Shown here piece after piece: positions 5,076-29,172 of a DNA stretch of 33,137 nt. The position numbers and the translations under genes are program-made. The stretch lies in contig JAIDPF010000052.1 in NCBI GenBank assembly GCA_029062895.1, positions 1 to 33,137 on the forward strand. Direction: 5' to 3'. How positions within the stretch are numbered: the first letter of the stretch is position 1; every line of letters starts with the position of its first letter. The DNA comes from Lachnospiraceae bacterium (GTDB taxonomy: Bacteria > Bacillota > Clostridia > Lachnospirales > Lachnospiraceae). A model generated the notes under the pieces. It had not been told where the DNA came from. It saw nothing but the letters and a program-made list of their open reading frames with translations, and searched no databases.

Positions 5076-6191
5076 ATGGCGGATAAGAATTTATTAAATA
5101 ATACGGAAGATCTGCGCGCAGCGATCGCGGAGCTGCAGATGAGGATAGAGGCGCGTGACCGGCAGAAGGAAGAAAGCGAAAATCTCGAAAATTCATGGAT
5201 CCATAAAGAGGATAATGATGGGACGGAAACAGAAGAAGAGATTTATGACGACCAGTCTCAGGAATTGTACGAGGATGCGAGTGAAAGTTCGCTAACAGAA
5301 AGAAAAAAGCGTATCATCCGGGAAACGACAGGAGAGGATGTGGATCCGGAGTCGGAGTATAAGGACGTTATAGCGAGAGACCGTCGGAATGAGAAAGTAA
5401 AAGCCGATTCTCACTCTCCAAAAGAACAGCCGCCGCGTGAAACAAGGAACACACATGCCAATTCCGGCGGAAAAAGAAGAAGGAACAGGGCAGACGGAGA
5501 TGTGATCATTTCTTTAAAGAATGTCAGCAAGTCTTATGTTAAGGATGTTCCGGCCCTTTCCAATGTCAATATCCAGATTAGGAGAGGAGAGTTTGTGTTT
5601 ATCGTTGGCAGCAGTGGTTCCGGTAAATCTACGCTGATCAGGCTTTTGCTCCGGGAACTGAAACCGACGTCCGGCTCTATCATGGTCAACGGTTTGCAGG
5701 TGGATAAACTCAGGCGCGGCAAGATACCGAAGCTTCGCAGGAGTATGGGCGTTGTATTTCAGGATTTCAGGCTGTTGAAAGACAGAAATGTCTATGAAAA
5801 TGTTGCATTTGCGCAGCGTATTATACAGACGCCGCTTAGGGAGATGAAGCGTAATGTGCCTAATATGCTGGCAACGGTGGGACTGGCCGGTAAATATAAG
5901 GCCAATCCGGATGAACTATCCGGAGGAGAGCAGCAGCGCGTGGCAATCGCAAGAGCTCTTGTCAACAGACCGCCAATCCTCGTGGCAGATGAGCCGACCG
6001 GAAATCTGGATCCTAAGAATACGATGGAGATCATGCATCTGTTAGAGAAGATCAATGAGAGTGGTACTACGGTGATCGTGGTGACGCATGATGATAAGAT
6101 GGTGGACGAGATGAAAAAGCGTGTGATCACGATCCGCAAGGGTGTCGTGATCAGCGATGAGGAAAAGGGTGGATACAGCAATGAAGGTTAG
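5076..6191 (+). CDS. ftsE: FtsE cell-division ATPase with long N-terminal extension
   Basis: The ABC ATPase of the FtsEX complex, which sits under the membrane and controls peptidoglycan hydrolases. The ATPase occupies residues ~142-371 and is complete: Walker [10 protein letters not shown] (178-186), Q-loop Q229, signature LSGGEQQR (281-288), Walker B ILVADEP (301-307) and H-loop H338. The family is normally about 225-230 residues; this protein is 371 because ~140 residues precede the domain. That extension starts helical ([18 protein letters not shown]), becomes acidic and then basic (GGKRRRNR), and looks disordered. The start is supported by AGGAGG just upstream of ATG 5076 and no equally good internal site was seen, so the extension is probably translated. 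ftsX overlaps its end by 11 nt. Confidence 0.93.
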
Positions 6192-7077
6192 CACATTATT
6201 TTATGTAATTTATCAGGGATTTCGGAATACAATTAAAAATAAGTGGTTTACGCTTGCGTCGGTAGCAACCATTGCGGCCTGTCTGTTTTTGTTCGGTATC
6301 TTTTACGCGGTAATCGCCAATTTTCAGAATATTGTAAAAACCGCGGAGGAAGGGGTTTCTGTTACCGTATTTTTTGAAAAAGGGACGCCTGATGAGCGGA
6401 TTGCCCAGATCGGTGATATGATAAGGGCTCATACGGCAGTTGCAAGCGCCAATTTTATCTCTGCGTCGGAAGCATGGGAGGATTTTAAGGTAGAATATTT
6501 GGAGGGATACGCGGATGGATTTACGGAGAATCCGCTTGCCAATTCCATGAATTATGAGATTTATTTAAATGATGTATCGCGTCAGGCGGAATTAGTAGCT
6601 TATCTGGAGGGAATTGAAGGCGTCAGACGCGTCAATCGTTCGGAGGTGACTGCGAATACTTTAATGGGCGTGAATTCGCTGGTGGCCTATGTATCAATTG
6701 GTATGATCGCGATTTTGCTGGCAGTATCGATTTTCCTGATTTCTAATACGGTCATGATCGGTATTTCAGTCCGAAAGGATGAGATTGCGATTATGAAATA
6801 TATCGGCGCAACGGATTTCTTCGTGCGGTCTCCATTTGTGATCGAGGGTATTCTCATCGGCGCGTTGGGATCGCTGGTGCCTCTTGGCATTATCTATCTT
6901 TTGTATAATGAAATGTTGGTTTATATTATGGAGCATTTTTCGGTTCTGACCAAACTTTTGGCATTTGTGCCGGTGGGAGAGGTATTTCACTATCTGGTGC
7001 CGATCTCGCTGGGTGTGGGGATTGGGATCGGATTTATCGGAAGTTTTGTAACGGTTAAGAGACATATTAAAGTCTAG
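6181..7077 (+). CDS. ftsX: FtsX cell-division membrane protein
   Basis: The membrane partner of FtsE, 298 residues, near the family's normal size. It has a short cytoplasmic N terminus, TM1 at about 21-44, an extracellular domain (about 45-165) that in other firmicutes contacts a coiled-coil hydrolase, and three further TM segments (around [33 protein letters not shown] and [13 protein letters not shown]). The start at ATG 6181 fits the family N terminus [13 protein letters not shown], with GGTGG 8 nt upstream; the in-frame ATG at 6157 would only add residues inside ftsE. The 11-nt overlap with ftsE suggests translational coupling. The M23 gene begins 13 nt after the stop. Confidence 0.93.
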
Positions 7078-26679: not shown

Positions 26680-27465
26680 TTGAAGATAGATCGTGAAAAA
26701 GTGAAAAAGGTCTTTGCGGAATACGTGAGGCATTATGATGCGGAGGATCCTAAGATACGTCTCAAGATCCTTCATACATATAAGGTGAGTGAATTGTGTG
26801 AAGAAATTGCGTGTGATCTGTTTGGTTCGACGGAAATGACGGGAGCGTCTGCCCAGGAGGATATTGACCTTGCATGGCTGATTGGTATGCTTCATGATAT
26901 CGGGAGATTTGAACAGGTGCGGCGGTATCATACCCTGTTTGACGCGGAATCCGTTTCTCATGCCGCGCTTGGAATCGAGATCTTATTTAAAGAGGAGATG
27001 CTGACAAGATTTATTACGGCAAACCCCGAAGACCCGGACGTCGGAGTGATCCGTGCGGCGATTGCTTATCATAGCGATTACCGGATTCCGGGAGATCTGG
27101 ACGAACGGACAAGGATGTACTGTCAGATCCTGAGAGACGCGGATAAGCTCGATATTTTCCGGGTGAATTGTGAAACGCCTCTGGAGGATATCTATCATAT
27201 TTCAAAAGAGGAATTGACGCATGCGGAGGTGTCGGAAGAAGTGATGGAAAATTTCATGCAGCGTCAGGCGACTCCCAGAGAGATAAGAAAGACACCGGTG
27301 GATTATGTTGTGGGAATGATCTCCATGGCATTTGAGTTGGTTTATCCCATCAGCAGAAAGATCGCGGCGCGTCAGGGCTATCTGGACCATCTGCTTGATT
27401 TTCCGTCTGAAAATGAAAAAACAAGACAGCAGTTTGCAATGATGAAACAACATCTGACACTATAA
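26680..27465 (+). CDS. HD-domain hydrolase
   Basis: 261 residues. The HD-domain core is visible: an upstream His in ILHTYKV, then MLHDIGRFEQ (H72-D73), a further His pair in YHTLFDAESVSHAALG, and an Asp in ILRDADKLDIF. This is the metal-dependent phosphohydrolase layout; substrates range from nucleotides to second messengers and cannot be told here. There is no membrane segment or extra domain. The start is TTG, preceded by GAGG 7 nt upstream, and no better downstream start precedes the helix leading to the HD core. The 161-nt palindromic element ends about 70 bp upstream. Confidence 0.82.
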   Translation: MKIDREKVKKVFAEYVRHYDAEDPKIRLKILHTYKVSELCEEIACDLFGSTEMTGASAQEDIDLAWLIGMLHDIGRFEQVRRYHTLFDAESVSHAALGIEILFKEEMLTRFITANPEDPDVGVIRAAIAYHSDYRIPGDLDERTRMYCQILRDADKLDIFRVNCETPLEDIYHISKEELTHAEVSEEVMENFMQRQATPREIRKTPVDYVVGMISMAFELVYPISRKIAARQGYLDHLLDFPSENEKTRQQFAMMKQHLTL

Positions 27466-27532
27466 AATGTGGTTTTTAAAAAATAAAACACAAAATATAT
27501 GAAAAAGGGATACCATTTCTCTGAAAATTGTG

Positions 27533-27538
27533 TATAAT
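27533..27538 (+). promoter_or_regulatory. -10 element upstream of the PolC-like gene
   Basis: A perfect TATAAT with TGTG immediately upstream; no clear -35. Transcription would start near 27545, right at an in-frame ATG (27544), which argues for the later GTG 27580 as translation start. Confidence 0.5.
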
Positions 27539-27579
27539 AGAATATGTGTGGACAAGACACAGATTTGAGGAGAAGATTG

Positions 27580-28155
27580 GTGAGAAATCGAGGATATAAA
27601 TATATCATTAAACGCAGACAGGAAGGCTACTGGCTTTATTGCGTCAATGCGATATGGATCAATCAGATGTTAAAGGAACACGGTATACGTCCCAAGGATT
27701 TTAGACAGCTGACATGGCAGGATCTTGGGGAGGTACAGGATTCCGCATTTGGCAGAAGGCTGTTTTTGGAGATGAAGCCGAAGAATTTTTGGCAGATGGC
27801 AGATACACTTTCTCTCAAATATGTATCTTATGATTTGGAGAAGGGAAGCTGCTTTTATGAACAGGATTGGTTTTTAAGATATCCTTTGTTTGCACAGGAG
27901 GATGTGTATGAACTTCTGCGGGATAGTGGTTTTAGGCAGGAGGACGCGATACGCATCATGGAAGTAGTCCGCAGGGGACAATGCGGTACGGATCTGAAAT
28001 GGCGCGAGTTTATTGAACTTTATGATGTGCCGGAGGAAATGGTCGAGGCATTTTCCAGATGTATTTATCTTCCGCCCCGGGAGAAAGTGGTCAAGGATCT
28101 GCTGGATATTATTTCGCTGGCGATCCGGTGTAAAACCCGTGGGAAAATTGATTAA
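27580..28155 (+). CDS. Stand-alone protein resembling the fingers region of DNA polymerase PolC
   Basis: 191 residues with no signal peptide or membrane segment. From residue ~57 to ~175 it follows, in order, C-terminal polymerase segments of PolC-type DNA polymerase III as I remember them. FGRRLFLEM and KPKNFWQMADTLSLKYV (57-82) match the FGTKFVRQM and RPTTFSELVRISGLSHG region. QEDVYELLRDSGF with DAIRIMEVVRRG (106-133) matches TRDDIMVYLIYKGL with AFKIMESVRKGKG. W141 plus DVPEEMVEAFSRCIYLPP (149-166) matches W plus VPEWYIDSCKKIKYMFP. The following PolC PKAHA motif is lost (PPREK). There is no exonuclease, PHP or palm catalytic segment, so it cannot polymerise. Start GTG 27580 has AGGAG 7 nt upstream; TTG 27577 is possible. 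The relationship is a recognition from memory, not an alignment. Confidence 0.6.
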   Translation: MRNRGYKYIIKRRQEGYWLYCVNAIWINQMLKEHGIRPKDFRQLTWQDLGEVQDSAFGRRLFLEMKPKNFWQMADTLSLKYVSYDLEKGSCFYEQDWFLRYPLFAQEDVYELLRDSGFRQEDAIRIMEVVRRGQCGTDLKWREFIELYDVPEEMVEAFSRCIYLPPREKVVKDLLDIISLAIRCKTRGKID

Positions 28156-28281: not shown

Positions 28282-29172
28282 TCACTTTGTCCAGTGCCGC
28301 CGGTCCTGGCCAAAGAAAAAGATGGCGATCGTTCCGGGACCTACGTGTGTACCGGTGCAAAGATCATAGTAACGTAGGATGATTTCTTTCACGGGACATT
28401 TGGCACGGATCATGTCCGCGACAAACTGCGCATCCTCCGGGGCGTCACAGTGAGCGATAGCAACATATTCTTCTGACGGATTGGTCAGTCTGGCAATGGT
28501 ATGATCGGCGAGCGCCTGTAAGGAACGCTGGCGGCTGCGGACTTTCTCGTGTACGACGATCTTGCCAAGATCATTGCCCTTCAGAATGGGTTTAATGGAA
28601 AGAAGGCTGCCGATGGCGGCTTCCGCCGCAGAGATACGACCTCCGCGTTTGAGATATTTCAGATCACCCACTGTAAAGATCTGGTTCATGTTCATCTTTT
28701 CCCGCTCAAAGTAGGCAAGAACTTCGTCAATAGAACAACCCTGTTCGCGCAGTTCTGCGATCCGGATTGCCCAGATGCCTTCTGCAAGGGAAGCGGATAA
28801 TGTATCAATGACGGCGACGCGCCGGTTCGGATATTTATCCTTCAGGTCATCGGCTGCGATCTTAGCGGCCTGGGCCGTGCCGGAGATGCCGCTGGAAATG
28901 CTGACGAATATAATGTCTTTACCATCCGCTAAAAACGGTTCAAAAGATTTGGCAAATTTGTCGGAATTGATCAGAGAAGTGGAAACGGCGGCGCCCTTTC
29001 TCATCTGGTCATAAAAATTTTTCCCTGTGGCGGCAAAATCTCTGGTTTCGTCGTAACAGAGAAAATCTTTTCCGTCGATACTGACGGTATAAGAGATAAT
29101 GTGTATATGATATCTGTCAGTCAGATCCTTTGTCAAATTGCTGGCGGAATCGGTAATAATTTCATACAACAT
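28282..29172 (-). CDS. DegV-family fatty-acid-binding protein
   Basis: 296 residues, a little longer than the family's usual ~280. The N terminus YEIITDSASNLTKDLTDRY and the motifs AAVSTSLINSDKF, ISSGISGTAQAA, VIDTLSASLAEG and the C-terminal HVGPGTIAIFFFG are all characteristic. DegV proteins bind a fatty acid in a buried pocket; in firmicutes FakB members deliver it to the kinase FakA. Whether this copy does so is an inference, and no fakA is in the window. The ATG is preceded on the minus strand by AAGGAG at 9 nt. It is convergent with the PolC-like gene. Confidence 0.9.
   Translation of the reverse strand: MLYEIITDSASNLTKDLTDRYHIHIISYTVSIDGKDFLCYDETRDFAATGKNFYDQMRKGAAVSTSLINSDKFAKSFEPFLADGKDIIFVSISSGISGTAQAAKIAADDLKDKYPNRRVAVIDTLSASLAEGIWAIRIAELREQGCSIDEVLAYFEREKMNMNQIFTVGDLKYLKRGGRISAAEAAIGSLLSIKPILKGNDLGKIVVHEKVRSRQRSLQALADHTIARLTNPSEEYVAIAHCDAPEDAQFVADMIRAKCPVKEIILRYYDLCTGTHVGPGTIAIFFFGQDRRHWTK

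Follow-up and report, generated by a model that had tools for sequence, protein, structure and literature searches.

Gene A, an open reading frame in a Lachnospiraceae genome, encodes a small protein that very probably descends from the DNA polymerase PolC and has lost catalysis. It is present in nearly all genomes of one genus, is under purifying selection, and lies behind a promoter with boxes resembling those of the regulator NrdR. We interpret it as a domesticated fragment of a dead PolC paralogue, expressed from an NrdR-type promoter, the product of which would make contact with the replisome; we give this explanation as a whole a probability of about 0.55. The window analyzed here, a stretch of 33,137 nucleotides, lies on contig 64 of a 3.07 Mb genome that is 98% complete, and it carries the following features.

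27457..27472, plus strand: NrdR-like box 1, ACACTATAAAATGTGG, 10.4 bits, overlapping the HD-type gene upstream at its stop codon
27488..27503, plus strand: NrdR-like box 2, weak, ACACAAAATATATGAA, 2.3 bits, 31 bp from box 1
27511..27519, plus strand: conserved -35-region element TACCATTTY, 21 bp upstream of GTATAAT
27532..27538, plus strand: -10 element GTATAAT, present in 31/33 family members
27567..27575, plus strand: Shine-Dalgarno-like GAGGAGAAG, a purine run in 33/33 members
27580..28155, plus strand: gene A, a 191-residue non-catalytic protein apparently derived from PolC fingers, with a GTG start and the TAA stop included
27580..27618, plus strand: N-terminal strand (M/V)RNRGYKYII..., aligned by MAFFT with TPAGYAVLPAG of family B at low identity
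28066..28098, plus strand: YLPPREKVVKD, replacing the PolC nucleotide-binding YMFPKAHAAAY (family and structure-sequence alignments)
28282..29172, minus strand: degV (name from the initial annotation), convergent with gene A

Reading frame, conservation and selection

The initial annotation credited gene A with its own ribosome binding site and -10 box, a position convergent with degV and an uninterrupted frame, and on these grounds held that it was not simply debris. All of this is borne out: both signals recur in the family as listed above, degV is a minus-strand reading frame, and the 191 codons of the window's open reading frame contain no internal stop. The frames of all 33 members (187–269 codons) are likewise free of internal stops. 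The start codon is GTG in 32 members and TTG in L020 alone, and R(N/D)RGY follows it directly. The leaders in L024, L026, L030 and L032 are longer and share a common end, TTAATACTTATAGCAGGAGATTATT, with at most one change. The isoelectric point is below 6 in 26/33 proteins and is 8.2 for the window protein (PolC fingers, 4.8–6.7), values that speak neither for nor against DNA binding. No second copy of the protein was found in its own genome at an E value of 1.

A search of the genus (35 genomes) recovered gene A from 33, including all 23 with at least 90% completeness and at most 5% contamination; the two genomes lacking a match are 88% and 72% complete. The residues invariant in the alignment of the 33 family proteins (A1) include R2, R4, G5, Y6, P67, F70, W71, D75, W97, E107, D108, E111, L147, Y148 and R167, and the VRRG-type helix motif is absent from 23 members. 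The dN/dS calculation proposed with the initial annotation gave 0.051 and 0.067 for the window gene against its two nearest species, a sign of purifying selection, and a median of 0.048 (range 0.013–0.180) over the 19 pairs with a dS between 0.02 and 1.2. For the same two species, the values for the adjoining degV (0.054 and 0.074) are close to those for gene A, and those for the HD-type gene (0.134 and 0.201) are higher. In the more distant half of the genus, gene A proteins are 36–47% identical, versus about 76–81% for galE. Gene A is almost certainly maintained for a selected function.

The genomic setting is also conserved. At no fewer than 23 of the 32 loci besides that of the window, a galE or HD-type gene precedes gene A on the same strand, and at no fewer than 12 degV is convergent with it downstream; these counts are lower bounds because most loci were covered by a flank of only 1.5 kb per side, and the neighbor names (degV, galE, HD, MBOAT, SGNH) were given by eye or come from the initial annotation. 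No polymerase gene was seen beside gene A among the loci examined, mostly within 1.5 kb flanks. A profile built from A1 matched 10 of 397 Lachnospiraceae genomes at 1e-6: three of the genus, five with members of a related group of PolC paralogues (family B, described below), and two more, of which one has a B-like fragment and the other a further PolC-like reading frame (826 aa). At 1e-8, the only matches among 392 genomes of the order were in the two that belong to the genus. These searches covered sampled genomes of the family and order and scored up to eight candidates per genome (up to four for family B). Among the genomes searched, gene A is confined to one genus, of which it is, by sequence comparison, a fixed chromosomal gene. 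The proposal of a conserved free-standing copy stands, with orthologues well beyond one strain (33/35 genus genomes), and is narrowed by the confinement to that genus among the genomes searched.

PolC ancestry and lost polymerase elements

Gene A had initially been described as an excised, degenerate segment of PolC fingers, on the basis of the order and spacing of its motifs. That order is present (FGRRLF..KPKNFWQM, then EDVYELLRDSGFRQEDAIRIMEVVRRG, then VPEEMVEAFSRCIYLPPRE), and profile comparison agrees with it. The NCBIfam model for PolC (TIGR01405) matches residues 115–179 of a 203-residue reading with an E value of 6.2e-4, a match that falls far short of a curated cut-off designed for whole PolC. 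The window protein alone found matches at an E value of 0.001 in 45 of 200 Lachnospiraceae genomes; reading frames of 1200 aa or longer, a size to be expected for PolC, accounted for the match in 38 of these 200 genomes, over approximately residues 34–171. In hhalign, A1 matched a set of 25 PolC fingers with an E value of 1.6e-6 (probability 90); a rerun with controls gave 1.8e-6 for PolC, 0.049 or worse for 24 other proteins of the window and 0.24 or worse for two reversed profiles. The likeness to canonical PolC is weak and limited to the fingers. Pfam searches with the gene A family returned nothing credible (Acetyltransf_11 in 9/33, DUF7218 and others once each, best E value 0.008), and a profile search of PDB sequences with the family did not recover PolC. 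The PDB matches that were obtained, to a designed TIM barrel (via short repeats) and to salivary proteins, were discarded as spurious.

A closer relationship links gene A to family B (L062, L063, L064 and L152), a set of stand-alone degenerate PolC paralogues of about 400–450 aa scattered over Lachnospiraceae genera. Its members have a palm start of the RGT/RGS type, a Cys4 segment (incomplete in L152) and FPRAH or a variant of it, and their version of the PolC catalytic motif PDIDLNFS is altered (judged by eye). Family B was found in 5 of 397 Lachnospiraceae genomes at E values below 1e-150, one copy containing an internal stop. A1 matched family B with an E value of 1.4e-14 (probability 98), and family B matched PolC with 8.3e-16. 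A maximum-likelihood tree of 34 fingers segments (IQ-TREE; 16 of the 33 gene A proteins, four of family B, six other PolC-like reading frames and eight PolC, the window genome's own PolC, L091, being left out) separated gene A and family B from PolC and the other PolC-like reading frames with a support of 100; we take this tree as support rather than proof, because it rests on few columns and has long branches. The genome also encodes a full-length PolC (an open frame of 1536 aa on contig 65). Direct excision from this host PolC is less likely, given that family B is far closer to gene A (1.4e-14 versus 1.6e-6), and gene A probably belongs with the distinct degenerate PolC paralogues. The idea of an excised segment therefore holds as to descent from PolC, but probably not as to a direct cut from the PolC of the host.

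The absence of a catalytic domain, also noted initially, is clear. In the alignment, gene A covers the last part of the PolC palm together with the fingers, and its N-terminal strand resembles, by eye, HPGGIIVVP, a strand of the PolC palm. The length of the protein leaves no room for the first two catalytic aspartates of the palm, the site of which we take to be the PDIDLNFS region of PolC. Around the third, LLKLDILGHDD of the PolC set is replaced by YCVNAIWIN (aligned by eye), and Pfam found no PHP domain in the 191 residues. The reported loss of the PKAHA motif extends to the whole family, FPKAHA being present in 0/33 members. The cryo-EM work on PolC assigns F1276 a part in positioning the incoming nucleotide; together with Y1274 and Y1284, this residue also shifts to accommodate an inhibitor (PMC12592400, excerpts). 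A single constant offset would place these residues in YMF and HAAAY of chain 9QPC, where gene A has YLP and VVKD. With these residues replaced, the gene A protein is no polymerase, nor is it expected to bind incoming nucleotides in the manner of PolC; a role as a nucleotide decoy or dNTP sensor is unlikely for the same reason.

Lachnospiraceae genomes also contain a diverse set of stand-alone PolC-like reading frames of about 330–830 aa with reduced or altered palms (L062–L068, L151, L152 and L155). L066 has a PHP domain, L155 apparently retains the first aspartate motif (by eye), and L151 (G010:C100) falls with the other PolC-like reading frames in the tree, not with family B. The broken family B copy (L153:5557-6789, genome G265) is interrupted by an in-frame stop. 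A divergent gene adjoins family B in L063 (4898-5875, minus strand), L064 (4824-5789, plus strand) and L153 (6945-7280, plus strand), with the common start ATILCLYE..KY.DE.H..; the L063 copy has only a sub-threshold Pfam match, to HTH_11, and this gene may be a regulator or partner of family B. Reading frames resembling ADP-ribosylglycohydrolases or macro domains (by eye) lie near PolC-like frames (L065:3725-4534, L155:9030-10007 and L153:9415-10425), and an AAA+-type ATPase frame (by eye; L151:4093-5391) is separated by 13 bp from the PolC-like frame that follows it at 5405-6802, the two sharing a strand in an operon-like arrangement. Reading frames matching family B also occur in 22 phage records, the 15 matches listed having 71–99% coverage and 21–26% identity.

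A promoter with NrdR-like boxes

The promoter of gene A is conserved beyond its -10 element. Its NrdR-type character, which the initial annotation did not mention, is the most informative pointer to function. In all, 28/33 members have TACCATTTT (allowing one mismatch) exactly 21 bp 5' of GTATAAT, and ACAAAATAT lies another 20–22 bp upstream of TACCATTTT in 24/33. No -10 element was seen within 200 bp of gene A in L024 and L026, in which the promoter evidently lies further up or has been replaced. The promoter block was scanned for in 11 genus genomes with up to three mismatches and a reversed control. With 0–1 mismatch, the promoter of gene A was the sole match in 10 genomes, and G003 had none; there was one further match with two mismatches (G020), and there were three with three mismatches (two in G008 and one in G033). 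The reversed block had one match each in G000 and G023.

The boxes were scored with a matrix of 32 boxes from upstream of nrdD (anaerobic ribonucleotide reductase) at 30 loci, seeded with a consensus written by hand from NrdR sites. A match of 12 of 14 positions was present at 27/30 nrdD loci, and leave-one-out scoring gave at least 12 bits in 29/29 nrdD upstream regions, the seed consensus choosing the same boxes. A 16-bp palindrome reaching 10 bits was found upstream of gene A in 25/33 members (14 bits in 18/33), as opposed to 0/51 upstream regions of the neighbors galE, degV, HD, MBOAT and SGNH (at least 8 bits in 3/51), regions that begin at tblastn matches rather than proven starts and draw on a few genomes twice. 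None of 29 PolC upstream regions reached 10 bits (one of 30 loci dropped), a weak control because PolC may sit inside an operon, and background windows did so in 24 of 1261 cases, a set that includes some gene A promoters. In 26/33 members, the score of the single best box was reached by at most three of 300 dinucleotide shuffles; the exceptions are L009, L013, L024, L026, L032, L033 and the window itself, where box 1 alone was matched by 5/300 shuffles and the pair of boxes by 0/300. The box of L011 and L012, CCACAAGATATTGTGG, is letter for letter an nrdD box, and no NrdR-like box was found within 200 bp of gene A in L024 and L026.

Measured from the -10 element, the boxes fall at recurrent offsets, box 1 and box 2 being 31–32 bp apart, and many members have a third box downstream of the -10 element. 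Among the 31 promoters that could be anchored on the TACCAT element, matches of at least 4 bits clustered at offsets of -54 (box 1, only 5/28), -23 (box 2, only 9/30), +54 (8/25) and +56 (10/25). A search of 15 whole genomes with the box pattern and one mismatch gave no enrichment over the reversed control, so the argument for NrdR rests on position and on the promoter-level controls. NrdR itself is encoded in the genome carrying the window (G000:C78, 200.4 bits against a cut-off of 124.65). According to excerpts of PMC12051234, NrdR sites are spaced at 31–32 bp with boxes 15–16 bp apart, Streptococcus pneumoniae has an nrd promoter with three boxes, and NrdR binds DNA and represses with ATP plus dATP and does not bind with ATP alone. 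Taken together, these sequence features make it likely that gene A is under NrdR control. As NrdR needs dATP for DNA binding, gene A should be expressed when dATP is low.

Possible role and comparison with known systems

Gene A would have arisen from a degenerate PolC paralogue of which the fingers and little else were retained, the catalytic and nucleotide-binding elements being lost. When dATP is plentiful, NrdR would bind and repress the promoter; in a dNTP shortage, gene A would be expressed together with ribonucleotide reductase. At the replisome, the protein might then work by touching other proteins: by mimicking the surface that the PolC fingers present, or by covering it, it could adjust PolC or the progress of the fork until the dNTP supply recovers. 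Conserved aromatic and acidic residues, together with the PolC ancestry and the loss of catalysis and nucleotide binding, lead us to suggest this contact with the replisome. A replication accessory factor, one of the roles originally proposed, is our best guess, and modulation of the replisome is put forward tentatively as its mechanism. More speculative still is a dNTP-sensing brake on replication, in which low dATP causes NrdR to free gene A and the reductase, and the fingers mimic binds to the PolC replisome, where it holds back or shields the forks until the dNTP pool is restored.

Several other explanations can be set against this domesticated, replisome-contacting fragment. Gene A might regulate dNTP synthesis by binding ribonucleotide reductase or NrdR, with PolC as no more than the source of a scaffold; the NrdR-type promoter would fit, as would the loss of the nucleotide-binding and catalytic motifs, with which polymerase-type surfaces may also have gone. 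We consider this unlikely, as the recognized neighbors (galE, HD-type, degV, MBOAT and SGNH) are not reductase genes, and we know of no such NrdR partner elsewhere, which also counts against it. Somewhat less likely again is a former mobile-element gene, now fixed, such as a defense or counter-defense decoy titrating phage or host polymerase factors. The patchiness of its nearest relatives, family B (5/397 genomes), and the integrase-like reading frames (by eye) near one family B copy (L063) are suggestive of such an origin, but gene A is at the same chromosomal site throughout most of the genus, had no match in phage and plasmid collections, and has an NrdR-type promoter. A chance likeness between an unrelated helical protein and PolC fingers might account for the weak match to canonical PolC, the lack of credible Pfam matches and the failure to retrieve PolC from the PDB; it is very improbable given the agreement of the direct PolC route with that through family B and the negative controls. 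A decaying PolC pseudogene, which the lost motifs and a divergence faster than that of galE might suggest, is refuted by purifying selection (dN/dS of about 0.05), frames without a stop in all 33 members and the conserved start, ribosome binding site and promoter.

The NrdR-type promoter leads to a testable hypothesis, that dNTP supply is tied to replication in bacteria with PolC and DnaE1, a polymerase set called experimentally uncharacterized in the part consulted of PMC3919608. A replication brake, if true, would couple the speed of bacterial forks to the supply of dNTPs by means of a cannibalized replicase. The PolC drug ibezapolstat spares Lachnospiraceae (PMC11963600, excerpt), which adds to the interest of PolC in this family. 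We found no report of a stand-alone non-catalytic piece of PolC in open-licence papers, nor of any dead C-family polymerase paralogue retained for another job. Two surveys of C-family polymerases leave out sequences like gene A by design, through their filters: according to excerpts, one removed fragments lacking an intact active site (PMC3919608) and the other discarded fragments of fewer than 200 residues (PMC12926913).

Gene A shares with PolC (structures 3F2B and 9QPC) the order and spacing of the fingers segments up to the nucleotide-binding motif, whereas PolC has about 1400–1500 aa with PHP, exonuclease and catalytic palm domains, and gene A has 191 aa with none of the three and stands alone in a genome where a full-length PolC is encoded as well. 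Its closest relatives, family B, have KPKxF..YPxFTRED segments in common with it, but also the RGT/RGS palm start, the Cys4 segment and, mostly, FPRAH, all lacking in gene A; they are patchily distributed, with best box scores of 5.2, 1.5 and -0.9 in three upstream regions, whereas gene A is nearly universal in its genus and has NrdR-type boxes. The promoter shares the palindromic 16-bp boxes of the NrdR regulon and may share its 31–32 bp repeat, but gene A does not encode a reductase, box 2 is weak and many members have a third box 3' of the -10 element. The inactivated Y-family polymerases ImuB and iPolY are, like gene A, dead paralogues retained for another job (PMC12926913, excerpt), but they belong to another polymerase family and work within multi-protein polymerase modules, whereas no polymerase gene was seen beside gene A at the loci examined. 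Dead polymerase paralogues are thus known in the Y family, and the lineage, size and regulation of gene A are, as far as tested, new.
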